Assembly (NCBI RefSeq): GCF_002288105.1
Contig: NZ_CP016774.1
Coordinates: forward strand, 248,001 to 312,000
Source: Candidatus Planktophila versatilis
GTDB taxonomy: Bacteria; Actinomycetota; Actinomycetes; Nanopelagicales; Nanopelagicaceae
Direction of reading: 5' to 3'
Length of the DNA stretch: 64,000 bases
Translations under genes and position numbers: made by a program
Notes under the pieces: generated by a model
Told to the model about the DNA's origin: nothing
The model's input: only the letters and a program-made list of their open reading frames with translations
The model's database searches: none
Shown: positions 10,235-20,302 of the stretch, piece by piece
How positions within the stretch are numbered: the stretch's first letter is position 1
How the letters are laid out: every line of letters starts with the position of its first letter

Positions 10235-10600
10235 GAAGAGTCGCCCGGATCACCGCGTTGCAGCTCTAGATTAATTTCTAGACTGGACCGAGGAAAGTCC
10301 GGACTTCACAGAGCAAGGTGGTGGGTAACGCCCACCCGGAGCAATCCGCGGGAAAGTGCAACAGAAAGTAGACCGCCAATAGCAATATTGGTAAGGGTGA
10401 AACGGCGGTGTAAGAGACCACCAGTGCATGTAGTGATACATGTAGCTATGTAAACCCCACCTGAAGCAAGACCAAGAAGATAGTGCGTTGCTCGCGCAAG
10501 CTATCGGGTAGGTTGCTTGAATCTGCAAGCAATTGCAGATCTAGATGGATGGTGATCGGTTCGAAAGAACTACAGGATCCGGCTTATAGGGCGACTCTTC
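10235..10600 (+). ncRNA. rnpB: RNase P RNA (bacterial class A)
   Basis: The catalytic RNA of RNase P, which matures tRNA 5' ends. The 12-nt P1 helix is perfect: GAAGAGTCGCCC at 10235-10246 pairs with GGGCGACTCTTC at 10589-10600. The universal CR-I motif GAGGAAAGTCCG is at 10290-10301. An AGAAAGTAGACCGCC segment, GGTGAAACGG, and the 3' pseudoknot strand ending CCGGCTTATAGG are also in order. Its 3' end recurs five more times downstream (see the att repeats). Confidence 0.97.
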
Positions 10601-10650
10601 TTCCAATTAGGTGGGCGCAGGTTAAAACTGCGCTCACCTTTCTGCATTTT
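10592..10650 (+). repeat. Left copy of the rnpB 3'-end/terminator direct repeat
   Basis: This segment, from CGACTCTTCT through the terminator hairpin, is repeated with a handful of differences at 10801-10859. Duplicating the target gene's 3' end plus its terminator is the footprint expected when an integrating element replaces the end of rnpB and displaces the original. Confidence 0.75.
10611..10645 (+). terminator. Intrinsic terminator of rnpB
   Basis: GTGGGCGCAG at 10611-10620 pairs with CTGCGCTCAC at 10628-10637 (10 bp, one G-T pair) around loop GTTAAAA. It is followed by CTTTCTGCATTTT. Confidence 0.8.
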
Positions 10651-10696
10651 CCTTGTACAAGTTGTTACATAACCTGTCGCAGATTTGAATGTTTTT

Positions 10697-10736
10697 ATGG
10701 GGAATCGATGGGCAAATATGGGCAGTTTCATGGGCA
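10697..10736 (+). repeat. ATGGGCA iterons (candidate integrase arm sites)
   Basis: Three exact copies of ATGGGCA at 10708, 10718 and 10730, plus a near copy ATGGGGA at 10697, are spaced 10-12 bp apart, about one helical turn. They lie about 65-100 bp left of the rnpB-derived core at 10801. The same heptamer occurs once at 16038-16044 and once at 18212-18218, each about 30 bp before another core copy. An integrase or excisionase binding role is inferred. Confidence 0.5.
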
Positions 10737-10800
10737 GATTTCAACTACAAACAACATCCCAAAGTTGTTCCTACTCGGTCAATTTCCGAAACTCTTAGAA

Positions 10801-10859
10801 CGACTCTTCTTTAAATTAGGTGGGCGCAGGTTAAAACTGCGCTCACTTTTCTGTACTTT
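10801..10859 (+). mobile_element. Displaced rnpB 3' end plus terminator (attachment site copy 2)
   Basis: CGACTCTTCT is followed by the same terminator hairpin as rnpB (10820-10829 with 10837-10846). The bases before 10801 no longer match rnpB, which puts the presumed crossover in the CGACTCTTCT core. It most likely represents the original chromosomal end pushed aside by an insertion. Confidence 0.7.
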
Positions 10860-10928
10860 CCATCACAATTCGTAAGCGAGCCGTCTCCAAATAGACCTAA
10901 AAAAGTTCTCATCTGGTAATTTATTGTC

Positions 10929-11324
10929 ATGGCTATGGTAATCAAGAGCAATAAGCGAATGAGCTTGCTCCTTGCCATTTTATTGGCTGTATTTTCAACT
11001 GGCATCGTGATTGCACATCAATGTCACTCAATGCAAAGCGATCAAGTAGCCATTCAAGCAAACCATTCAGGAGATCACGTCGCTCCTACAACTTCAGTTA
11101 AGCCGCTCAGCTTTGCTTCTAGCTCAAATGCATTAATGGATGTTGGGTGTGCAGTACTTTTCATTGTTGTACTTTTGCTCGGACGAAAGCTCCATTATTT
11201 AAGAGCGCCAAGCTCTCAATTAAAAGAATATCTAACAAATGGTAGACGTTTAATTAGCGCGCAACGAAACCAATTTATACAACTTTCACTATCCCGCGCA
11301 CAATTGGGAGTTATCCGCATCTAA
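10929..11324 (+). CDS. Small membrane protein with His-rich exported loop
   Basis: A 131-residue protein of unknown function. An N-terminal hydrophobic segment (MSLLLAILLAVFSTGIVIA) is followed by a short region with several His, Cys and Met residues (HQCHSM, NHSGDH). A second helix (CAVLFIVVLLLG) and a basic tail follow. The layout resembles DUF6153-type proteins that travel with copper genes, but I hold that loosely. The ATG at 10935 could be the true start. It is the first gene in the cassette and is followed by DUF305. Confidence 0.55.
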   Translation: MAMVIKSNKRMSLLLAILLAVFSTGIVIAHQCHSMQSDQVAIQANHSGDHVAPTTSVKPLSFASSSNALMDVGCAVLFIVVLLLGRKLHYLRAPSSQLKEYLTNGRRLISAQRNQFIQLSLSRAQLGVIRI

Positions 11325-11394
11325 TCCGTCTTCGATAGAAGTTACTGTTTTATTGACTAAATAAACCAATTAATCACATCGAAAAGGATTCCAA

Positions 11395-11937
11395 ATGTTT
11401 AAGAAAATCGTATTTCTGCTTACCGTAATTTCCCTTCCATTCTTTATCCAACCCGCATCAGCAAGTTCTCATGCCAAGAGCTTGAAGAACTTAGGCATGA
11501 ACGAAATTATGTTCGCGCAGCGCATGGCTCCTCATCACCAACAGGCAATAGAAATGTCCAAGATGGCACTCAAAAATAGTGCTAGCCCAGAGGTTAAGAA
11601 TTTGGCAAAGGCGATCATCTCTGCACAGAGTAAAGAAATGGCCCAATTGAAATATTGGCTGACTGCCACTAAGTCATCGATGACGATGGACCACGACATG
11701 GGGATGAGTGGCATGCTTCCTGAGAGCTCAATGACTACCTTGAAAAAACTCAAAGGTGGCAAATTCGACACGGCGTTTCTTCAATCGATGATTGCTCACC
11801 ATGAAGGCGCTTTAGAGATGGTTTCTATGCTCGACGGTACAAAGAATAGTGAAGCCAAGAAGATTGCGGTTGGTATCCGGTCTGGACAATCAGCTGAAAT
11901 CACTCTCATGAAGAAATTATTGGCTAAGAGTAAGTAA
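11395..11937 (+). CDS. DUF305 family exported protein (first copy)
   Basis: A 180-residue secreted protein with a clear signal peptide (FKKIVFLLTVISLPFF, cut after SASS). It contains the paired DUF305 motifs FAQRMAPHHQQAIEM and SMIAHHEGALEM, which give it a four-helix ferritin-like fold with His-rich turns. A DMGMSGM linker is Met-rich. DUF305 proteins are often found with copper resistance genes, and metal binding is likely. A paralogue lies at 15364-15978 in the same cassette. Confidence 0.88.
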   Translation: MFKKIVFLLTVISLPFFIQPASASSHAKSLKNLGMNEIMFAQRMAPHHQQAIEMSKMALKNSASPEVKNLAKAIISAQSKEMAQLKYWLTATKSSMTMDHDMGMSGMLPESSMTTLKKLKGGKFDTAFLQSMIAHHEGALEMVSMLDGTKNSEAKKIAVGIRSGQSAEITLMKKLLAKSK

Positions 11938-11953
11938 GGTTCTAGGTCAATTC

Positions 11954-12952
11954 ATGAAAAGAATCCTTGCCTTACTGCTCGTTGCAGTTTTCATGGCGCA
12001 GTCGATACAGGCACAGGCTGCGCCAACGGTGGCATCTGTGCAGCGCGAGATTGACCGACTGCGGACTCTGGCTGCAGAAAAATATGAAGCCGCGAATGAA
12101 GCAACCTTGAAAATTAAAGCACTTCAAAAAGAGAAAGGGGTGCTGCAACAGCGCGAGGAAGTAATTAAAAAAGAGCTGAGTACAGTCAGTAAAGTTTTAG
12201 CAAAAATTGCGATTTCTGAATATCAAGGAAGTGGTTTTGGTAAATCCTTTGAATTGCTTTTTTCCTCCGATCCAACGAAATATCTGATGGATGTATCTGT
12301 ACTAGATAGTGTCAGTCGAGGATATTCGAAGCAGTTACGTGAGTACGTAGCTACCAAACAAAGAGTTCAAGCCACACAGTTAGTTTTGGGCGATCGTACT
12401 GCGCTACTACTTGTGGAACAAAAACGACTCAATCAACAAGTAACCCAAGCGAAGAGTGCCTTAGCAAAGGCAGAAAAACTTCTTAATTCACTTGCAAAGG
12501 CCGATAGAGAGCGTCTTCTTCGAGAAGAAACAGATCGAGAGAATAAGATTCTGATTGCTTCGAAAGGATATGCCGCTTCTTACAAAGGTGACAACACACG
12601 TGGGTCAATTGCCCTCAAGTTCGCCCTCCAACAAATAGGTGATATTTATGTTTGGGCCGCAGCGGGCCCAACTCGTTGGGACTGCTCAGGTCTGACGATG
12701 CGGGCATTTCAGGCGGCAGGAGTTTCGCTGCCACATTCATCACGCATTCAAATTAAATATGGGAAGCCCATTTCTTACTCATCATTAAAGCCTGGGGATT
12801 TACTTTTCTTTGGTAAACCAATTAGCCATGTTTCGATCTATATGGGTGGTGGAAAAATGGTTCAAGCACCGCGGCCTGGGAAGAAGGTTGAAGTAGTTCC
12901 ACTGACAAAGATGTTTGGAAGAAAACCATTCGTGGGGGCTACTAGGTTATGA
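11954..12952 (+). CDS. Secreted NlpC/P60 peptidoglycan hydrolase with coiled coil (first)
   Basis: A 332-residue secreted enzyme with a signal peptide ending near AQAA. Residues about 25-205 are a long coiled coil like the N-terminus of RipA/PcsB proteins. An NlpC/P60 cysteine peptidase follows, with Cys244 in WDCSG and His292 in ISHVSIYMG. The family cleaves D-Glu-meso-DAP bonds in wall peptides. The stop overlaps the next NlpC/P60 start by 4 nt (ATGA), so the two are translated together. Confidence 0.9.
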   Translation: MKRILALLLVAVFMAQSIQAQAAPTVASVQREIDRLRTLAAEKYEAANEATLKIKALQKEKGVLQQREEVIKKELSTVSKVLAKIAISEYQGSGFGKSFELLFSSDPTKYLMDVSVLDSVSRGYSKQLREYVATKQRVQATQLVLGDRTALLLVEQKRLNQQVTQAKSALAKAEKLLNSLAKADRERLLREETDRENKILIASKGYAASYKGDNTRGSIALKFALQQIGDIYVWAAAGPTRWDCSGLTMRAFQAAGVSLPHSSRIQIKYGKPISYSSLKPGDLLFFGKPISHVSIYMGGGKMVQAPRPGKKVEVVPLTKMFGRKPFVGATRL

Positions 12953-14163
12953 AGCTATTGCGTGTGAAGAAGTTACATTCAGTCCTCCTATCAATTAGTA
13001 TCCTAACTACAATCTCGCCTGATGCATTTGGCGCTAATCACAAACCAACGCTTGCACAGATAGAAGCAGCCAAAAAACTTGAACTGCAGAAAAAACAAAA
13101 TGCTGCTAATGCTGCTAAAAAACTTGTAGCTGCACAAGGAAGCCTTAGAAAACTTGCAGCGCTTGCTGCGGCGGTAAACAAAAGGTACCTGTCTGCCAAG
13201 AATGAATTAGCAGTAGCTGTGAAAGAATTAAATTCAGCGACGAAAGCTGTTCAAGCTGCCGAGGCTGAGGTCTCAGCAACTCACCGAAATATTGGAAAGT
13301 TAGCTGTCGCTGCATATATGACGGGAGGAAATATGGGAAATATTGAAACATTTCTTAGTGCAAACGGTCCACAAGATGTAATCGACACTATTTCCATTCT
13401 CGAAAATTTGGGCTCTAAGAACAAAGTTGCTCTCGAACAATTCAAGGCTGCAGAGATCATCGCGAAAGAGGCTAGAAAAGTTGCTGAAGCCGCTAAAGAG
13501 CTCCAATTGCGAGCAACTGAGAAGGTTGCGATAGCAAAGCAAGAAGCAGATTCTGTCCGTGATGCTCAACAAAAGGAAGTGGACAAGCTTCAGGCCGTAC
13601 AGGACAAGCTACAAAAGGAGTTAGCCTCGGCTAAAAAAGTAAGGCTAACACTCGAACAAAAACGCCAACTCGCCATCCTTGAAGAAACAAGATCTAATGA
13701 AGCTACCAAAGCTCCAAACCAGGCTAAAGTTTGGAAGGGCGGTGGCCCAAACGGTGCGTCATCTTCGAGAACAACTGTTGAGCAACGTCTGAAGGCGGTT
13801 GAATTTGCGAAGCGACAAGTTTTGGCAAAGAAACCATATGTGTGGGGTAGCGAAGGTCCTAATTCTTTTGATTGCTCAGGTTTAGTTTATGCAGCCTACA
13901 AGTACGCAGGGCTTGGCTGGCCTAATTGGGATCGACTTAACTCAGGACTCTATTACACCTATACAAAACAAGTTCCAATCGCTGAAATGCAACCGGGCGA
14001 CTTAATTTTTTACTCTTATAAAGGCACCCAGAGCACAATTCATCATATGAGCATCTATGCTGGAAATGGGATGATGTGGGAAGCAAGGTCTACTGCAACA
14101 GGCCTGAAGTATTCCAATATTTATAGTGTTCAAGGAATGATGCCATTTGCTGGCCGAGTTTAG
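12949..14163 (+). CDS. Secreted NlpC/P60 peptidoglycan hydrolase with coiled coil (second)
   Basis: A 404-residue protein of the same plan as its neighbour. A signal peptide is followed by an Ala/Lys-rich coiled coil at about 35-245, a short linker and an NlpC/P60 domain with Cys309 in FDCSG and His366 in HHMSIYAG. Overlap with the upstream gene suggests a functional pair in septal or envelope remodelling. The coding sequence is visibly Lys- and AT-rich compared with the core genes around the island. Confidence 0.9.
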   Translation: MKLLRVKKLHSVLLSISILTTISPDAFGANHKPTLAQIEAAKKLELQKKQNAANAAKKLVAAQGSLRKLAALAAAVNKRYLSAKNELAVAVKELNSATKAVQAAEAEVSATHRNIGKLAVAAYMTGGNMGNIETFLSANGPQDVIDTISILENLGSKNKVALEQFKAAEIIAKEARKVAEAAKELQLRATEKVAIAKQEADSVRDAQQKEVDKLQAVQDKLQKELASAKKVRLTLEQKRQLAILEETRSNEATKAPNQAKVWKGGGPNGASSSRTTVEQRLKAVEFAKRQVLAKKPYVWGSEGPNSFDCSGLVYAAYKYAGLGWPNWDRLNSGLYYTYTKQVPIAEMQPGDLIFYSYKGTQSTIHHMSIYAGNGMMWEARSTATGLKYSNIYSVQGMMPFAGRV

Positions 14164-14194
14164 AAGAAAATCATCAAACAGAGAATGGATTAAT

Positions 14195-15016
14195 ATGAAA
14201 ACGCAAAATATTAAAAGTTTTAGGTTCAGATTTTCTTGCTTTGCAATTGTTGCACTGATGACAGTAAACAACGGCGCTATCGCTCAGACACTTGATTCCG
14301 TCTCACATATTCATCATGTAAAAGTTGTGGGCAATAAAGTTCTGGTAATGACTCACGAAGGTCTCTATGAGCTCGTTGGCAAAAATAATATGAAGTTAGT
14401 TGGGCAAGATAAAATTGATGTGATGGGGTTTACAACTTCAGGTAAGGATATATTTGCAAGCGGGCACCCTGCTCAAGGGTCAAAAGCGTTAAATCCTATC
14501 GGCCTCGTGAAGTCAACCGATGGCGGATTAAGTTGGAAATCTGTTTCGCTAGTCGGGAAAGTAGATTTCCACTTTCTAGAAGGTGCTGGGACTGATCTTT
14601 ATGGTGCTGATTCGCAGAGTGGAAACTTGATGTATTCAGCAGATTCTGGAAAGAGTTGGAGCTCGCTAGGAGCAAACAGCTTTACAGATATTGCGGTTTC
14701 GCCAGATATGTCAGGTATTGCTGTGGCGATAAAGGGCTCTAAACTGCTCCTCACTAGGAATGCCCTTAAATCCACAAAAGAATTGAAAAGTACTCTCAAA
14801 TTTACACAGGTCGAATGGCGCGATTCTGGCCTTTACGCTTTAAGTGGCACTTCTCTTTACATGTCATCGGACCTTGGAAACAGCTGGAATAAGCTCAATA
14901 TATTTAAAGGAGCTACTGGAATTCTTAGCGCCAGTGACCAGTTGATCTTGGTGACCGTGGGCTCAGATATCTATACATCAAAAAATATGGGTAAGATTTT
15001 TAGGAAAATTTCCTAA
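14195..15016 (+). CDS. Secreted BNR/sialidase-like repeat protein (F510_1955-like)
   Basis: About 273 residues: a signal peptide, then a beta-propeller-like region. It opens with SHIHHVKV and THEGLYEL, then carries four Asp-box-like turns (STDGGLSW, SADSGKSW, SSDLGNSW, SKNMGKIF). This matches the exported F510_1955-type glycosyl-hydrolase-like proteins that accompany DUF305 and copper genes. Catalysis is unproven. The ATG at 14195 begins the signal peptide; an upstream in-frame ATG at 14147 overlaps the preceding gene and is rejected. Confidence 0.75.
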   Translation: MKTQNIKSFRFRFSCFAIVALMTVNNGAIAQTLDSVSHIHHVKVVGNKVLVMTHEGLYELVGKNNMKLVGQDKIDVMGFTTSGKDIFASGHPAQGSKALNPIGLVKSTDGGLSWKSVSLVGKVDFHFLEGAGTDLYGADSQSGNLMYSADSGKSWSSLGANSFTDIAVSPDMSGIAVAIKGSKLLLTRNALKSTKELKSTLKFTQVEWRDSGLYALSGTSLYMSSDLGNSWNKLNIFKGATGILSASDQLILVTVGSDIYTSKNMGKIFRKIS

Positions 15017-15098
15017 AATAAGCAATTTCCTTTTTCTGTTTCGTGCATTCAATAGCAGATGGCGATCAGACTAGGTTTTGTAATCAAAGGAGAAATAC

Positions 15099-15305
15099 AT
15101 GGCAGAAAAGACTGTTGGAATAAAAGGAATGACATGTGGCCACTGTGAAGGCCGTGTAAGCAAGGAGATTATGGCAATTCCGGGTGTAATCAAAGTCGTT
15201 GCCAGCGCCGAAAATGGGAATGCCATTATCAGCGCTGACTCAGAAATACCACAGGACTCAATCGAGCGAGCAGTGCAAGCGGCAGGATATTCCATAGTTC
15301 CTTAA
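15099..15305 (+). CDS. Heavy-metal-associated domain metallochaperone (CopZ-like)
   Basis: A 68-residue single HMA domain with the metal-binding loop GMTCGHC and the ferredoxin-like continuation GVIKVVASAENGNAIIS. It probably carries Cu(I). No copper ATPase lies next to it, so its partner must be elsewhere or be the DUF305/NlpC cargo. AAAGGAG is placed well before the ATG. Confidence 0.9.
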   Translation: MAEKTVGIKGMTCGHCEGRVSKEIMAIPGVIKVVASAENGNAIISADSEIPQDSIERAVQAAGYSIVP

Positions 15306-15363
15306 GTCTGACAGAAAACTCTCAGAAACTGCGAGTATGCTTGCAATATCAAAGGGGTTAGAG

Positions 15364-15978
15364 ATGCAAATAAATATTGATAAGAAGACTGGTTCGCTCG
15401 TTGCAATCATCGTTGTTCTGCTTGGAATAATTCTAGGATTTTCAATAAGCAGGAATAGCGACGAAGGATTCTTTGGGATGCGTGGAAACAATTCCATGGG
15501 TATGCGTCACAACTCAGGAACTGCCACATATACAGGTGCCGATGTGATGTTCTTGCAGATGATGATTCCTCATCACCAGCAAGCGATTGATATTTCAAAC
15601 ATTGCTCTTAAAACATCAAAAGATTCAGAACTCCTTGCACTTGCAAACACAATTATCAAAGCCCAAACAGCAGAGATAGTGCAAATGCAGTCTTGGCTGA
15701 ATGATGCGAATGTAAACCCAGGTATGGGCCACTCAATGGACGGAATGGGTGGGATGCTCGATGATGCCGAACTATCAGCACTTTCGGAAGCTTCGGGAAA
15801 GAACTTTGATTTGCTTTGGCTTAAAGGGATGATCGGACATCACGATGGTGCAATCCATATGACCACAATGATTCGAGACGCTAGTAACGCTGATATCAAG
15901 ACTTTCGGTGAGAATGTTGTAAAGGATCAATCTGCCCAAATTATTCAGATGAAGGCGATGCTCAAACGAATCGGATAA
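15364..15978 (+). CDS. DUF305 family membrane-anchored protein (second copy)
   Basis: About 204 residues with an N-terminal membrane anchor (SLVAIIVVLLGIILGFS). A Met/Gly-rich stretch follows (FFGMRGNNSMGMRH), then the two DUF305 motifs MIPHHQQAIDI and GMIGHHDGAIHM, separated by a Met-rich linker (MGHSMDGMGGM). The Met and His clusters suggest copper binding at the cell surface. The ATG at 15364 has AAAGGGG upstream, so the longer frame from 15337 is not preferred. Confidence 0.88.
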   Translation: MQINIDKKTGSLVAIIVVLLGIILGFSISRNSDEGFFGMRGNNSMGMRHNSGTATYTGADVMFLQMMIPHHQQAIDISNIALKTSKDSELLALANTIIKAQTAEIVQMQSWLNDANVNPGMGHSMDGMGGMLDDAELSALSEASGKNFDLLWLKGMIGHHDGAIHMTTMIRDASNADIKTFGENVVKDQSAQIIQMKAMLKRIG

Positions 15979-16037
15979 GGCCGGTTTATTGATAGGCGTT
16001 CATCTCGAGTGTTATGCAACTTTATTTGAGAAAAAAT

Positions 16038-16100
16038 ATGGGCAATCCGCCAAATTAGGCCAGAAGTGAATTCTTCCGGCTTATAGGGCGACTCTTCTTT
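16038..16100 (+). mobile_element. rnpB-derived attachment repeat, copy 3
   Basis: ATGGGCA at 16038-16044 is followed by the repeat CTTCCGGCTTATAGGGCGAC continuing TCTTCTTT (16073-16100), identical to the 3' end of rnpB over about 23 bases. No rnpB terminator follows. It closes the DUF305/NlpC cassette and opens the MFS/XRE cassette. Confidence 0.8.
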
Positions 16101-16115
16101 AATCTTTAAATTGAA

Positions 16116-17354
16116 TTAAAAGTCTGAACGCAGTGACTTCGTTAGAAGTGCCAGGAATGCGGTCACTGAGAGAATCGCAGCCAAAATTATGTATGTAGTG
16201 CTGACTCCAAAACTTTCAACAGATAATCCAGCTAAAACCATTCCAAGTGGTGGGGCCGCATAAAAAACCGCGGTCTGCACACCAAATACTCTGCCTTGTT
16301 GATCAGCCGGAACTCTTTGTTGAATAAGTGTGCTCACCATGGGAGTGAAAGGTCCCCAAAATAAACCTAGAAAAAAACCAGCCACGGCAAGGATTGGTAA
16401 TGGTGGTAGAAATGCCATCGGAACAATACTCATAGCGACTCCGATAAAAGTTGTGCGTACAAGATTTTTACGCTTTAGACGAGCACTTACCCACCCATAA
16501 CCAAAGGATCCAACTGCATATCCTGCAGCCAGGGCTGCGATAACAATTCCAAGACTTGCAGGCTGACCTAAATCTTCAAAGTAGGTCGATAGGACGACTG
16601 TCTCAGTCGGCAGATAAACAGCTGCGATGATGAGAATAGAAAGAGTTAAAGTACGAAGCAGTTTGTCATTCCAAAGAACCTGGAAACCCACGCGAATACT
16701 TCGATTTGTTTTTTCTCCCATTTCTTCAGCCAAATTACGTGCGTCTTTGCCGAGATTGCCAACCCTTAAGAAAACGATAGCCAGTGCGGCAAAAACGAAG
16801 AGGCCGCCAGCAACCCAGAATGAATTCACGGCACCCACGGTTGAAATAAGACCCGCTCCAACAGCAGGACCAAAAACCCACGCAACTCCCATAAAGCCTT
16901 CGTGGATTCCATTGAGTCGATCAAGAGTTATATCTGATGCCTTTGCAACATCAGCCAACAGCGTTTTACGTGCTGTGTAACCTGCGGGATCAAAGATTGC
17001 ACCGATTACGGCGATAACTAATATTGTCGAGCTAGAAAGTCCTGATGTTAAAGCAACGATTGGAAATGCAACTACTGCAACAGCTGAGAGTAAGTCAGCC
17101 CCGATGCTCACCGAGCGACGACCAATATGGTCTACGAGCCAACCCCCAATTGGTGAGATCAACAAACCAGGCAGTGCAGAAATCGCTGCGACTAATCCGG
17201 CAAAGGCTGGGGAACCGGTCTCTTCAAGAATCAACCATGGAATCGTGATCATGACAATTGAATTGCCTAATCCCGAAGAGAAATTAGAAAGTTGATGGAG
17301 AACTACCGGAATCTTCTTTTTCATCAATCTTGGTTTCTCCTTTGCTTGTTGCAT
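16116..17354 (-). CDS. MFS drug exporter-like permease
   Basis: A protein of about 412 residues with 12 transmembrane segments. It has the MFS loop motif GGWLVDHIGRRSVSIGAD between helices 2 and 3 and a second IQQRVPADQQGRVFG motif as in macrolide/multidrug efflux permeases. The start may be ATG 17354 or ATG 17324 (MKKKIPVV). The substrate is unknown. It is divergent from an XRE regulator across a perfect palindrome, which suggests local control. Confidence 0.85.
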   Translation of the reverse strand: MQQAKEKPRLMKKKIPVVLHQLSNFSSGLGNSIVMITIPWLILEETGSPAFAGLVAAISALPGLLISPIGGWLVDHIGRRSVSIGADLLSAVAVVAFPIVALTSGLSSSTILVIAVIGAIFDPAGYTARKTLLADVAKASDITLDRLNGIHEGFMGVAWVFGPAVGAGLISTVGAVNSFWVAGGLFVFAALAIVFLRVGNLGKDARNLAEEMGEKTNRSIRVGFQVLWNDKLLRTLTLSILIIAAVYLPTETVVLSTYFEDLGQPASLGIVIAALAAGYAVGSFGYGWVSARLKRKNLVRTTFIGVAMSIVPMAFLPPLPILAVAGFFLGLFWGPFTPMVSTLIQQRVPADQQGRVFGVQTAVFYAAPPLGMVLAGLSVESFGVSTTYIILAAILSVTAFLALLTKSLRSDF

Positions 17355-17357
17355 TAA

Positions 17358-17380
17358 TGCTACATAGCATATATGCTACA
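17358..17380. promoter_or_regulatory. Palindromic operator between MFS and XRE genes
   Basis: TAGCATATATGCTA at 17365-17378 is a perfect 14-bp palindrome, with a partly overlapping direct repeat TGCTACA at 17358 and 17374. It sits between the divergent starts (17354 minus, 17385 plus), so a dimeric XRE repressor bound here could cover both promoters. This is inference from position and symmetry. Confidence 0.65.
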
Positions 17381-17384
17381 AAGT

Positions 17385-17618
17385 ATGAGTCGCAACCCTG
17401 AAGAGCCTGTCTATAACCGCATAGAAGAAGCACGTGTTGCCTTAGGGCTATCTAGGCAGGATCTTGCCGATAGGGCTGGCGTGCACTACCAAACCATTGG
17501 TTACCTAGAACGTGAGGAATATAGCCCTTCACTCGTTCTAGCTTTGCGCATAGCGAAGTCACTCAATCAAGAGGTATCAGATCTTTTTTCACTTAATCCA
17601 TTCAAGAAAGGAAAGTAA
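17385..17618 (+). CDS. XRE-family helix-turn-helix regulator
   Basis: A 77-residue compact repressor of the minimal XRE type. The helix-turn-helix lies at about 16-37 (SRQDLADRAGVHYQTIGYLE), followed by YSPSLVLALRIAKSL and an SDLF tail. The ATG at 17385 is preferred to 17373, because the latter lies inside the palindromic operator. It is followed after 2 nt by a membrane protein with a DELLDERQ segment, a common XRE partner architecture. Confidence 0.85.
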   Translation: MSRNPEEPVYNRIEEARVALGLSRQDLADRAGVHYQTIGYLEREEYSPSLVLALRIAKSLNQEVSDLFSLNPFKKGK

Positions 17619-17620
17619 GG

Positions 17621-18166
17621 ATGTCGAAGAAGAACAAGATTTATTGGTTTGAGGGCGTTACCGAAAAGGGTGTTAAGGCACTCTTAAATGATGAAAATTC
17701 CAAGTACAGATGGCTCAGACCACAACGGAACCGCAGAGTCCTTGTTGCCCTGATGCTCGTGGGCCTTATTGCAGTGGCAATGGGGAGTTACTGGCCAACC
17801 TTGAAAACGAATATGAACTTATCTGACGGAACTTCGGTAGTTGTCTATTCCGTGACAGCGATGCTTGTAATCTTTATTGTTCTTGGTGGCTACTCGCTCT
17901 TGCGTATCAGCGTGAGGTCTATTGCGGATGCACCAGATGAACTACTAGATGAGCGCCAAATCAAGGTTCGCAATACTTCAATTCGATATGCCTACTATGC
18001 AATGGGCTATGTAGTCCTAGGACTCTTATCGTTGATTTTTTTTGGGCCTGAATTAAAGATGTTTCAATCAGAGGGCAACGATGGAAGTTATCTCGTGATT
18101 GCTACCTTATTTGCTTATGCCTCAATGCCATCGATGGTTATGGCTTGGCGTGAGCGAGATATTTAG
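17621..18166 (+). CDS. Four-helix membrane protein partnered with XRE regulator
   Basis: A 181-residue protein with about four transmembrane segments in two hairpins. The cytoplasmic loop between them contains DAPDELLDERQIKVRN, reminiscent of the DERD/DERQ loop of DUF2178/DUF3796-type proteins encoded after small XRE regulators. No function is known. The start lies 2 nt after the XRE stop, so the two are cotranscribed. Confidence 0.65.
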   Translation: MSKKNKIYWFEGVTEKGVKALLNDENSKYRWLRPQRNRRVLVALMLVGLIAVAMGSYWPTLKTNMNLSDGTSVVVYSVTAMLVIFIVLGGYSLLRISVRSIADAPDELLDERQIKVRNTSIRYAYYAMGYVVLGLLSLIFFGPELKMFQSEGNDGSYLVIATLFAYASMPSMVMAWRERDI

Positions 18167-18211
18167 ATTCCAAGATCAAGTATTTCTTTGTAGTTTCTTG
18201 TGGGAAAAAGT

Positions 18212-18273
18212 ATGGGCAAACGCCAGAAATGAGCCTGATTTGAAATCTTCCGGCTTATAGGGCGACTCTTCTT
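18212..18273 (+). mobile_element. rnpB-derived attachment repeat, copy 4
   Basis: ATGGGCA at 18212-18218 is followed by the repeat CTTCCGGCTTATAGGGCGAC continuing TCTTCTT (18247-18273). It is identical to copy 3 over at least 27 bases, and the sequences between heptamer and core are also alike. It separates the XRE cassette from an RNA-only cassette. Confidence 0.8.
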
Positions 18274-18281
18274 TACACTTA

Positions 18282-18372
18282 GTTACTGCGAGTAACTGAG
18301 AAGTTATGCAATAATTCGAATCCGCTTGTTTGGTAGTAATTGGGACTTGGTTAATCGCCGAGTCCCTTTTGC
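18282..18372 (+). ncRNA. Candidate small RNA unit R1 with intrinsic terminator
   Basis: An inverted repeat GTTACT-gcg-AGTAAC (18282-18296) is followed by TATGCA (18305-18310, a possible -10). A short segment TCCGCTTGTTTGGTA (18321-18335) comes next, and then a terminator: GGGACTTGG pairs with CCGAGTCCC (18342-18366) before TTTTGCTTT. Two related units lie at 19891-19979 and 19993-20072. The transcript would be about 55 nt. Bases 18321-18335 are perfectly complementary to 18487-18501 in the tRNA-like element downstream. Confidence 0.5.
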
Positions 18373-18454
18373 TTTCTTAACTCAGCTTTTATCCACAGAT
18401 TCGTTCATTATCGATTTTCAATAGATGGTAAAGCCTTAACTTCGCCCTCGTGAT

Positions 18455-18529
18455 GGGGGCGTGTTGTAATCGGCAGCCTGTTCGTTTACCAAACAAGCGG
18501 AGCGGGTTCGAACCCCGTCGCCTCCACCA
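18455..18529 (+). tRNA. tRNA-like element with encoded CCA, anticodon unclear
   Basis: The acceptor stem GGGGGCG/CGCCTCC has 7 bp with one G-T pair. The T-arm GCGGG-TTCGAAC-CCCGT is canonical. The discriminator A and CCA are encoded at 18526-18529. A GG-containing D-loop fits only a weak 3-bp stem. The anticodon arm is odd: it folds best as a long hairpin (18478-18500, one mismatch) closing on triloop ACC, and a forced 7-nt loop gives anticodon TTA or ACC. It may be a decayed or specialised tRNA carried by a mobile cassette. Confidence 0.5.
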
Positions 18530-18596
18530 CAGTCTTAACTGTTGCAGCTCGATCTATTGGTAATGGTCAAAAGAGCTGAAACAGATTTGCATGGGA

Positions 18597-18622
18597 GGGC
18601 CTCGAGAGATCGAGGCCCTTTC
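18597..18622 (+). terminator. Intrinsic terminator after the tRNA-like element
   Basis: GGGCCTCGA (18597-18605) pairs perfectly with TCGAGGCCC (18610-18618) around a GAGA tetraloop, followed by TTTCC. It would end the transcript carrying the tRNA-like element. Confidence 0.75.
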
Positions 18623-18629
18623 CAAATTT

Positions 18630-18652
18630 CCCGTTTAGTAGGGCGACTCTTC
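18630..18652 (+). mobile_element. rnpB-derived attachment repeat, copy 5 (diverged)
   Basis: CCCGTTTAGTAGGGCGACTC continuing TTC keeps the core GGGCGACTCTTC but differs from rnpB in the CGGCTTA part. It bounds the 0.38-kb RNA-only cassette on the right. Confidence 0.65.
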
Positions 18653-18724
18653 ATTATCTAGATTCACAGGGTATTCACACCACTGGTTATCGATTTGAAG
18701 AATTCGAGCAGATAAGTTCCTCGA

Positions 18725-19393
18725 ATGAAGATTAAGACTATTGCAATTTCAACATCCGTATTTGTTATGTTGGGTGGTGTAATAGGAGTTCAACAATACA
18801 TTTCATCGCAGATCACTTCAAAGGTTGCGCGAGAGATGCCCAATGCTTCAGGTATTAGCGCCTCTGTTCCATGGGCAGATGTACCAAGCAATCTGACTTC
18901 TGATTCAATTAAATCTGCAGACATAAATATCAAGAGTTTTGCTCTTAAAGAGAGCGGCACAAAGACTTCGCTAGACATATCTGCAACAAGTATCAGTAAA
19001 GCAAAACCAACCCTAGTTGGCTCTTTAGAAGTAACGGCCACTATTCCTGCATCGACAATTACAAAACAATCCGAGTTTAACAATGCACAAATTGTGGGAA
19101 ACACTTTACAAGTGTCTGCGGGAGCAGGTGGAATGGGTACAGCGCTCCTAATTCCAAAGTACTCAAATAGCCAGCTTTATTTTGAGCTTCAGAGTGTTTC
19201 AATCTTTGGCAATCAAATTCCTGCTTCATCATTGCCGGCCGATCTTCAAAATCAAATTAAAAGTAGGAGCCAAAGAAGTTTGACGCCACCTAAGGGGCTT
19301 AAAGTTAAATCCGTCTCACTCAGCAGTAAAGGACTTTCTGTCAGAATGTCCGGAAACAACATTCAACTGGGCAATCTTGGATCTGGTTTATAG
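18725..19393 (+). CDS. LmeA/DUF2993-like exported protein
   Basis: A 222-residue protein with an N-terminal signal or anchor segment (TIAISTSVFVMLGGVIGVQQ). It is followed by a beta-rich domain like DUF2993/LmeA: an N-terminal VAREMPNASG segment, a central domain, then TPPKGLKVKSVSLSSKGLSV and a final GNNIQLGNL. Family members bind phospholipid in the periplasm of mycobacteria. It lies 8 nt before a small membrane protein in the same cassette. Confidence 0.7.
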   Translation: MKIKTIAISTSVFVMLGGVIGVQQYISSQITSKVAREMPNASGISASVPWADVPSNLTSDSIKSADINIKSFALKESGTKTSLDISATSISKAKPTLVGSLEVTATIPASTITKQSEFNNAQIVGNTLQVSAGAGGMGTALLIPKYSNSQLYFELQSVSIFGNQIPASSLPADLQNQIKSRSQRSLTPPKGLKVKSVSLSSKGLSVRMSGNNIQLGNLGSGL

Positions 19394-19401
19394 TTGGAAC
19401 T

Positions 19402-19851
19402 ATGAAGTTTGATATCAAAAAGGTATTTCCCAAAAATCCTTCAAGCTATGAGGGATTTCGCATAATTCGTTTAATTGCTGCTCTCTTTCTGTCCGTGATG
19501 GTTGCTCGCAGTTGCATTCACCTCTTCGCAGCTGATGGTGGCGCTCAGAGCATCGCTGGTATTGATACATCGGTTGAAGGCGGAAACAACATTATTGCGA
19601 TTTTTCACCAATGGGGTGCAATACAACTCATTCTTGCCATTCTTCTGCTTGTATTGTTTTTCCGTTATCCAGGATTAACCCCTTTGGTTTTGCTAACTCT
19701 TATCCTTGATCCAATCTTACGTTTTGTTGCCGGACAGCAAATGAGTTTAACGACCACAGGAACACCACCCGGTGAAGCGCTAAATGGGGTGGCTCTTTAT
19801 CTCCTTTTAGTTCTAATCCTAGGTTCACTTTGGAACAAAAAGCCAAACTAG
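19402..19851 (+). CDS. Small four-helix membrane protein, unknown
   Basis: A 149-residue protein with four hydrophobic segments (around residues 25-40, 68-86, 90-108 and 128-144). There is an exported loop between helices 1 and 2, and the C-terminus is basic. No motif is recognised. It follows the LmeA-like gene by 8 nt, so the two probably form one transcript. The next attachment repeat begins about 9 nt after its stop. Confidence 0.6.
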   Translation: MKFDIKKVFPKNPSSYEGFRIIRLIAALFLSVMVARSCIHLFAADGGAQSIAGIDTSVEGGNNIIAIFHQWGAIQLILAILLLVLFFRYPGLTPLVLLTLILDPILRFVAGQQMSLTTTGTPPGEALNGVALYLLLVLILGSLWNKKPN

Positions 19852-19857
19852 ATCTTT

Positions 19858-19881
19858 CTGGGTTATAGGGCGACTCCTCTT
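19858..19881 (+). mobile_element. rnpB-derived attachment repeat, copy 6 (diverged)
   Basis: CTGGGTTATAGGGCGACTCC continuing TCTT resembles the rnpB 3' end, with an extra or changed base in the CTCTTC core. It is the rightmost copy seen and marks the right side of the accessory region. Confidence 0.7.
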
Positions 19882-19890
19882 CACACAATA

Positions 19891-19983
19891 GTTACCGCGA
19901 GTAACCGTGCATCTATGCAATACTTTTATCACGATGGATTGGTAGTAATCGGGACTTGGTTAATCACCAGGTCCCTTTTGCTT
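19891..19983 (+). ncRNA. Candidate small RNA unit R2
   Basis: It repeats the R1 plan right after an attachment copy. The inverted repeat is GTTACC-gcg-AGTAAC (19891-19905), then TATGCA, then TTGGTAGTAATC. The terminator GGGACTTGG pairs with CCAGGTCCC (19951-19975) before TTTTGCTTT. The segment matching the tRNA-like element in R1 has diverged here. Confidence 0.45.
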
Positions 19984-19992
19984 TCCATTGCA

Positions 19993-20075
19993 GCTCTCAA
20001 GTTGTGTGCAATACTCCTACTACGCATGTTTGGTAGTAATTAGGACTTGGTTAATTCCAAGTCCTTTTTGCTTTT
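19993..20075 (+). ncRNA. Candidate small RNA unit R3
   Basis: A third related unit. TGTTTGGTAGTAATTAGG leads into a terminator hairpin, with AGGACTTGG paired to CCAAGTCCT (20042-20065) before TTTTTGCTTTT. It lacks the upstream inverted repeat of R1 and R2. About 45 bp further on, GATGGTGGGTAACG..CTAACTTCACGCTC (20129-20162) resembles the sequence just before the R1 tRNA-like element, but no tRNA-like fold follows. The rest of 20076-20243 shows nothing I can name. Confidence 0.45.
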
Positions 20076-20243
20076 CCACAGTCATATTTCATCCTCAAGC
20101 CCCTTCATCACACAGTTTCGATGGTGGGTAACGTCCTAACTTCACGCTCGCGATGAGGGCTCTTTCTATTTTCAACACTCTTGATTATTGCTCTTTTCAT
20201 TCATCTAGTTCACATGATCTGGGGAATAAAGCACAAATAATTG

Positions 20244-20272
20244 TTGACATTTGAATAATTCCCACCTAGGTT
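20244..20272 (+). promoter_or_regulatory. Sigma-70-type promoter of the mutarotase gene
   Basis: A consensus -35 TTGACA (20244-20249) and a -10 TAGGTT (20267-20272) are separated by 17 bp. They lie about 30 bp before the gene, which has AGGAG before its ATG. Confidence 0.6.
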
Positions 20273-20302
20273 TTCATTACTATCTCGTTTAGGAGTCGAA
20301 TA

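Follow-up and report, generated by a model that had tools for sequence, protein, structure and literature searches.

A protein-free, att-bounded cassette of Candidatus Planktophila versatilis with a tRNA gene and a covarying antisense small RNA: a candidate RNA-only addiction system

In type I toxin-antitoxin systems, which are found on mobile elements, the antisense RNA targets the mRNA of a protein toxin. Toxin-antitoxin modules made only of RNA, such as CreTA, are classed as type VIII. Antisense RNAs also form incompatibility pairs: ColE1 RNA I/RNA II and similar pairs control plasmid replication and are transcribed from overlapping antisense genes. CreTA joins an RNA toxin to an RNA antitoxin in a module described as addictive; CreT sequesters a rare tRNA by means of a short ORF, and CreA needs the CRISPR Cascade at the promoter (PMC8501985). 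The Bacillus cereus pseudo-tRNA tRNA-Other is described as part of a larger regulatory RNA (PMC3399842). In the additive flexible islands and tycheposons of streamlined aquatic bacteria, recurring repeats of a gene 3’ end, that of a tRNA gene, divide the cargo (PMC10872708).

The window, defined here as the whole stretch of 64,000 nucleotides that was analyzed, comes from a 1.33 Mb genome in a single contig. The RNase P RNA gene, rnpB, lies on the plus strand at 10237–10602 (Rfam RF00010, 310.8 bits), and the att sequence derives from its 3’ end. The att core TAGGGCGACTC occurs at 10587 (the rnpB 3’ end), 16084, 18258, 18639, and 19866. These five matches (at most one mismatch) were reached by 0 of 100 shuffles. 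The copy at the rnpB 3’ end was delimited by the repeat finder at 10577–10607. Repeat family D2 also places plus-strand copies at 18248–18278 (the reference copy, core 18258), at 18629–18659 (core 18639), and at 19856–19886. The first two are the left and right att copies of the unit described here, and the third heads a second array.

The preliminary description of this DNA had proposed an att-bounded unit with RNA as its only cargo, and both parts of that proposal stand. The cores at 18258 and 18639 enclose the cassette. No listed ORF of at least 50 amino acids (ATG, GTG, or TTG start) occurs between 18261 and 18724, and the longest stop-to-stop frame within 18258–18650 is 54 codons on the minus strand. 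The unit at 18258–18650 has no credible ORF, and both candidate partners are RNA. It contains (left to right) an att copy, an inverted repeat, an extended -10 box, a small RNA, TTATCCACA, a TAACTT box, a tRNA, a trailer hairpin, a terminator, and an att copy. Beyond what had been described, it holds a 15-nucleotide complementarity between the small RNA and the tRNA and the trailer hairpin, and two further small-RNA copies lie at about 19930–20076.

The unit resembles CreTA, as presented in the available part of that report, in that both partners are small RNAs and the toxic one, as proposed here, acts on decoding via a tRNA. It differs in that a tRNA is cast as the toxin, direct base pairing joins the two partners, many alleles exist, and the pairs are carried in att cassettes. 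With type I systems it shares an antisense small RNA that would restrain its partner on a mobile element, but it has no protein toxin. As in ColE1 RNA I/RNA II, short complementary segments diverge together between alleles; unlike that pair, the cassette partners each have a gene of their own, and both genes are oriented alike. The likeness to tRNA-Other lies in an odd tRNA-like RNA that adjoins a genomic island, but the cassette has a matching antisense partner and alleles, neither of which is mentioned for tRNA-Other in the accessible part of the source (PMC3399842). The division of cargo by recurring gene-3’-end repeats in a streamlined aquatic bacterium recalls tycheposons and flexible islands. 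Here, however, the repeated end is that of rnpB, which is absent from the accessible part of that text, no tyrosine recombinase lies nearby, and some blocks are RNA only (PMC10872708). A search of one open literature library returned no description of such an RNA-only unit, which is not proof of absence. To our knowledge there is no known system with this anatomy, and, toxic or not, a mobile tRNA with an anticodon arm that evolves in step with a separate small RNA, base for base, is undescribed.

The antisense small RNA (18321–18376, plus strand) consists of a 5’ tail at 18321–18335 and a 10-base-pair terminator stem at 18342–18366. It is approximately 50 nucleotides long, with a putative start site placed from the position of the -10 box. 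This extended -10 box (TG-C-AATAAT, 18307–18315, plus strand) is conserved in the alignment of 35 units. A consensus sigma-70 scan gave 0 full promoters in the unit (shuffle mean 0.6), and the promoter claim thus rests on the -10 box conserved in relatives. The RNA at 18313–18372 folds with a predicted energy of −21.9 kcal/mol (z −4.1), and 0 of 200 shuffles folded as well. Upstream lies the inverted repeat AGTTACT-GCG-AGTAACT (18281–18297, no strand assigned), which may serve as an operator or a recombinase arm. A similar inverted repeat occurs upstream of 47 of the 54 leading units, among which L107, at least, is a chance match. The preliminary description had listed an inverted-repeat operator, a -10-like box, a small RNA ending in a terminator, a tRNA-like fold with CCA, and a second perfect terminator. 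Each of these elements was located, with the operator role of the repeat kept as a suggestion.

Small RNAs occur singly or as tandem pairs about 90 base pairs apart, and every copy has a -10 box and a terminator of its own. The tRNA of relatives sits about 120 nucleotides past the nearer small RNA. In the window, a second copy (19930–19981, plus strand, an 80% repeat of the first) and a third copy (20022–20076, plus strand, a 61% repeat of the first) have no tRNA of their own. The totals given below differ because the rules for detecting small RNAs differ between counts. Under the stricter rule, L155, L162, L165, and L169 are without a small RNA, and the looser rules find one in each. Identity with a known Rfam small RNA was rejected: matches to known Rfam RNAs were limited to tRNA and tmRNA, plus a chance match to sX12 (21.4 bits against a cut-off of 106). 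The letters GTAATYGG are common to the small RNA (18336–18343) and the D-arm of the tRNA (18466–18473).

The tRNA (18455–18529, plus strand) is supported by ARAGORN, Rfam, and conservation. ARAGORN reports a complete tRNA-Gly(acc) of 75 nucleotides, with the anticodon ACC at 18488–18490 and an encoded CCA. The Rfam RF00005 match scores 38.3 bits against a cut-off of 29 and is the weakest of the 38 tRNA matches in the genome. The plain minimum-energy fold is ordinary (z −1.5; 18 of 200 shuffles as good). The RNA belongs to the tRNA class, since it has a cloverleaf and CCA and the tRNA finders agree. A tmRNA assignment was rejected (34.3 bits against an Rfam cut-off of 47), and a tmRNA with a tag is encoded elsewhere in the host. 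The putative -10 box of the tRNA, TAACTT, is at 18437–18442 on the plus strand and is conserved in the alignment. Farther upstream, TTATCCACA (18389–18397, plus strand) is common at a fixed place in aligned relatives. This is a sequence which we take to be DnaA-box-like, and replication-linked control through it is possible.

Among relatives the body of the tRNA is nearly constant, and the hypervariable part is the 3’ side of the anticodon arm. The anticodon stem is weak, with 74.9% of its cells paired as against 98.8–100% in the other stems, and the anticodon-arm hairpin averages −2.1 kcal/mol. At the acceptor end, A73, G2-C71, G3:U70, and G4-C69 are each present in 45 of the 46 main-type tRNAs, a set that omits L137 and L169, whose 75-nucleotide frame does not end in CCA. 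Position 68 is free in the main type (C 22, U 23, A 1), and G20 is absent from the D-loop as aligned for the comparison with alanine identity. Bacterial alanine determinants match this acceptor end, and bacterial glycine identity consists of U73, C2-G71, and G3-C70, according to the accessible part of the source (PMC9976931). The glycine acceptor identity is therefore lacking in 45 of the 46 main-type tRNAs at each of these positions. The host tRNA-Ala genes have the main-type acceptor end and the host tRNA-Gly genes do not. Judged from its letters, the main-type tRNA joins an alanine-type acceptor end to a glycine-type anticodon. The cloverleaf, the CCA, and a conserved T-arm would also suit an additional tRNA that serves translation in the ordinary way, the antisense regulator being incidental. 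Against that explanation, which is improbable, are the non-glycine acceptor end, the tRNA-Gly genes with GCC and UCC already present in the host, and a partner RNA that mirrors the hypervariability of the arm.

Downstream of the tRNA, a trailer hairpin is predicted from folding at 18539–18584 (plus strand). Its loop carries UUGGUA (18557–18562), which is complementary to the anticodon loop. The UAUUGGUA motif is present in 45 of 46 trailers, the exception being L169 of a second subfamily described below. The transcript would end at a terminator at 18597–18621 (plus strand), identified from sequence and fold, with a perfect 9-base-pair stem (18597–18618) and a short T run. It was missed by the terminator scanner, which requires 5 T in 8.

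The 5’ end predicted for the small RNA (18321–18335) is a 15-nucleotide perfect complement of 18487–18501 on the plus strand, as identified by the repeat finder. This target comprises the anticodon loop and the 3’ strand of the stem. There are 26 alleles of the 13-nucleotide tRNA arm among 40 non-redundant arrays, and in 36 of the 40 a small RNA from within the array pairs with the arm over at least 12 contiguous pairs (G·U allowed). In 5000 permutations of the arrays, which count related genomes as independent, the mean at this threshold was 6.4 and the maximum 15. With Watson-Crick pairs only, 28 of the 40 arrays match (permuted mean 2.5, maximum 8). Six of 46 tRNAs with a visible small RNA fall below a 12-base-pair match: four have 11 pairs, one has a mutated loop, and one is at a contig end. 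L046, with a G in its loop, has 13 pairs.

Covariation was scored in 35 contiguous units, which were preselected as having 12 or more pairs to the nearer copy, so that their figure of 100% paired follows by construction. Both-sided changes occur at 7 of the 13 pairs (71 cells). The covariation score is 0.46, compared with 0.146 for shuffled units and 0.029–0.086 for slid pairings. Weaker measures separate less sharply: the both-sided pair count was reached by 7 of 500 shuffles, and the count of pair types by 73 of 500. In loci fetched later, 17 of 18 tRNAs are complementary to upstream sequence over 14–21 nucleotides, with five of the 18 sequences (L235, L239, L240, L241, and L242) repeating earlier records; the remaining tRNA is truncated. 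Shuffled upstream DNA of these 18 loci averages 8.4–9.8 nucleotides of complementarity, with one shuffle equalling the observed length in L215 (17) and in L236 (14). The preliminary description had staked its reading on covariation among homologues, and the small RNA and the tRNA covary strongly. From this covariation, a functional pairing of the two RNAs is nearly certain, and the pairing is kept by compensatory change despite the hypervariable arm.

An effect at the level of DNA, with inverted repeats used for recombination or as a cruciform and the RNAs incidental, would suit the att copies that directly adjoin the unit at 43 of 54 leading units. It is very hard to reconcile with arrays of two small-RNA copies, in which the matching copy is proximal in 14, distal in 5, and tied in 1. 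The -10 box and terminator on each copy, together with the conserved tRNA fold and G3:U70, likewise make this explanation extremely unlikely.

Predicted duplex energies average −24.7 kcal/mol for cognate and −16.3 kcal/mol for non-cognate pairs, a comparison in which related genomes again count as independent cases. For 33 of 43 tRNAs, a small RNA of another array is predicted to bind more strongly than the tRNA’s own, partly because alleles recur. Specificity would therefore be graded. The small RNA of the window has a predicted energy of −22.4 kcal/mol on the host tRNA-Gly(GCC) and −29.9 kcal/mol on its own target.

The two partners are lost unequally. One or more small RNAs accompany each of the 42 distinct tRNAs for which 330 nucleotides or more of upstream DNA are available; six further tRNAs are cut by contig ends, and two of these show none. 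A tRNA lies within 330 nucleotides of 75 of the 95 distinct small RNAs; 19 have none though the sequence continues, and one is cut by a contig end. The array of the window at 19.86–20.17 kb, L093 (the same species), and L122 lack the tRNA between its 5’ G run and the G run of the terminator, and their small RNAs are retained. The remnant in the window, taken from the list of orphan units, is a TAACTT box fused to the terminator end (20137–20172, plus strand). A truncated tRNA lies beside a kept small RNA in L134, L135, and L238, and the second tRNA of L052 has a mutated loop. This one-sided loss is consistent with a toxin that was lost and an antitoxin that was kept. Neutral deletion between the G runs is another possible route to loss of the tRNA.

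The opposite assignment of roles would make the small RNA a toxin that blocks a host tRNA, for example tRNA-Gly(GCC), and the cassette tRNA its decoy. The predicted affinity of the window’s small RNA for that host tRNA agrees with such an arrangement. The orphan counts run the other way, with small RNAs commonly left alone (19 of 95) and tRNAs never (0 of 42), and the match to the cassette tRNA is both stronger and covarying. Reversed roles are accordingly given little credence.

The addiction reading of the preliminary description is plausible; one-sided loss and the conflict between acceptor end and anticodon point that way. The chances are judged to be about even that the unit is a protein-free, mobile, allele-specific RNA cassette for addiction (toxin-antitoxin) and immunity. 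For toxin-antitoxin function taken alone, the evidence is likewise evenly poised, with toxicity itself presumed. The alanine-type end, the glycine anticodon, the weak stem, and the duplex energies lead to the proposal that the tRNA mistranslates and that an antisense RNA silences it. Under this proposal, free tRNA would be charged, with alanine in the main type, and the charged tRNA would read the glycine codons GGU/GGN and poison translation. The small RNA would open the weak anticodon arm and cover the anticodon, silencing the tRNA. If the cassette were lost, the short small RNA would vanish before the stable tRNA, the cell would suffer, and the cassette would thereby be retained. Given the variation in the arm, a foreign tRNA could escape neutralization by the resident small RNA, and second and orphan small RNAs would then confer immunity against other alleles. 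The trailer hairpin may keep the precursor tRNA silent, which is the weakest step. The substitution of alanine for glycine is put forward tentatively, at somewhat less than an even chance. A similar reserve applies to the account as a whole, in which a polymorphic, gene-free cassette would create host dependence through a chimeric mistranslating tRNA, allele-specific antisense RNA, and spare units that confer immunity.

If this account is true, a tRNA would be added to the known kinds of toxin. An addiction system would be workable without protein and would diversify as polymorphic protein toxins do; as a strict toxin-antitoxin, it would fall within the RNA-only kind. Populations of freshwater actinobacteria would carry dozens of pairs, along with spare antisense units as immunity, and the cassettes would suggest how cargo islands persist in freshwater bacteria that are very abundant.

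A second subfamily (L169, L186, L215–L218, and L222) has UGCC instead of UACC in the anticodon loop. In its small RNAs GGUA is replaced by GGCA, which is also present in the trailer hairpins of the six units with an intact tRNA. The small RNA, the anticodon loop, and the trailer therefore change together. The alanine acceptor identity of the main type, including G3:U70, is not kept in this subfamily, and mischarging with alanine thus cannot be the general mechanism there. L215 and L218 adjoin a tRNA-Val(GAC) gene rather than rnpB.

These matching motifs also bear on a tRNA-sensing riboregulator, in which the small RNA and the trailer would display the glycine codon GGU/GGC, pair with the cassette tRNA, and tune its dosage or termination, T-box-like in spirit and with no toxin. 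The GGUA in both elements, its replacement by GGCA where the tRNA loop is UGCC, and the terminators between small RNA and tRNA and past the trailer hairpin all accord with it. Such a device is nevertheless unlikely. The region has no Rfam T-box match at the gathering score or at E up to 1, downstream of a small RNA there is only another small RNA or the tRNA, and a pairing of 13 base pairs extends well beyond one codon. Feedback of this kind also needs neither hypervariable alleles nor orphan small RNAs.

The search for homologous units suggested in the preliminary description was productive. The small-RNA core is present in 26 of 135 genomes of the genus (0 of 135 for the backwards control), and the tRNA pattern, searched alone, in 37 of 135. 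The exact D-arm pattern is found in 58 of 296 genomes and in 9 of the 17 genera of the order. Class-wide, 13 of 394 genomes match, and 12 of these are inside the order; the tRNA searches used the conserved 5’ half, so that very divergent tRNAs are missed in these counts. Spread beyond the order was not accepted, as the single outside match comes from a possibly misbinned contig of 3.2 kb. Named records with the small-RNA core are mostly actinobacterial, several being labelled Nanopelagicaceae or Candidatus Planktophila, with some core matches due to chance (e.g., Enterococcus, Saccharibacteria). One genome labelled as the same species (G157) holds an orphan pair besides two tRNA units that carry other alleles.

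Neither the 50,697 phage records nor the 72,556 plasmid records gave a match, and the tRNA pattern was not found in viral contigs. Four viral contigs share one sequence with the core motif but without a terminator, and a phage or plasmid origin was rejected. A defense or sensing unit, with a shielded tRNA that reacts to interference by phage with translation or tRNAs, would share its polymorphism and immunity-like spare units with arms-race loci. The lack of matches in these phage, plasmid, and viral sequences argues against it, as does the absence of any need for a partner gene, with 19 of 46 units being RNA only; it is considered rather unlikely.

The addiction cassette proposed here appears to be mobile. 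An att copy lies 107–112 nucleotides past the tRNA in 19 of the 46 units with enough sequence, and protein-free cassettes therefore recur, in line with the RNA-only mobile cargo first suggested. Upstream, an att copy precedes 43 of the 54 leading units (a set including at least one chance match, L107), and several others share a different left context. Tyrosine-recombinase (PF00589) matches number 2 to 5 per genome in 11 genomes. No tyrosine integrase lies near the unit in these: the matches are more than 100 kb away in seven single-contig genomes and on other contigs in four drafts. Movement of the cassette in trans or by homologous recombination is likely.

Six loci (L012, L013, L029, L040, L054, and L118) have no rnpB att, and several of them have the left context TGCTAATTGGGATGG, which may mark a further insertion site. 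In the window, a decayed copy of the rnpB terminator region (89%) with the mutated att TAGAACGACTC is found at 10587–10861, 209 base pairs past the first. The rnpB island at 10600–20300 consists of cargo blocks between att copies, and by eye its cargo includes copper-type and NlpC/P60-like proteins, an MFS transporter, and an HTH regulator.
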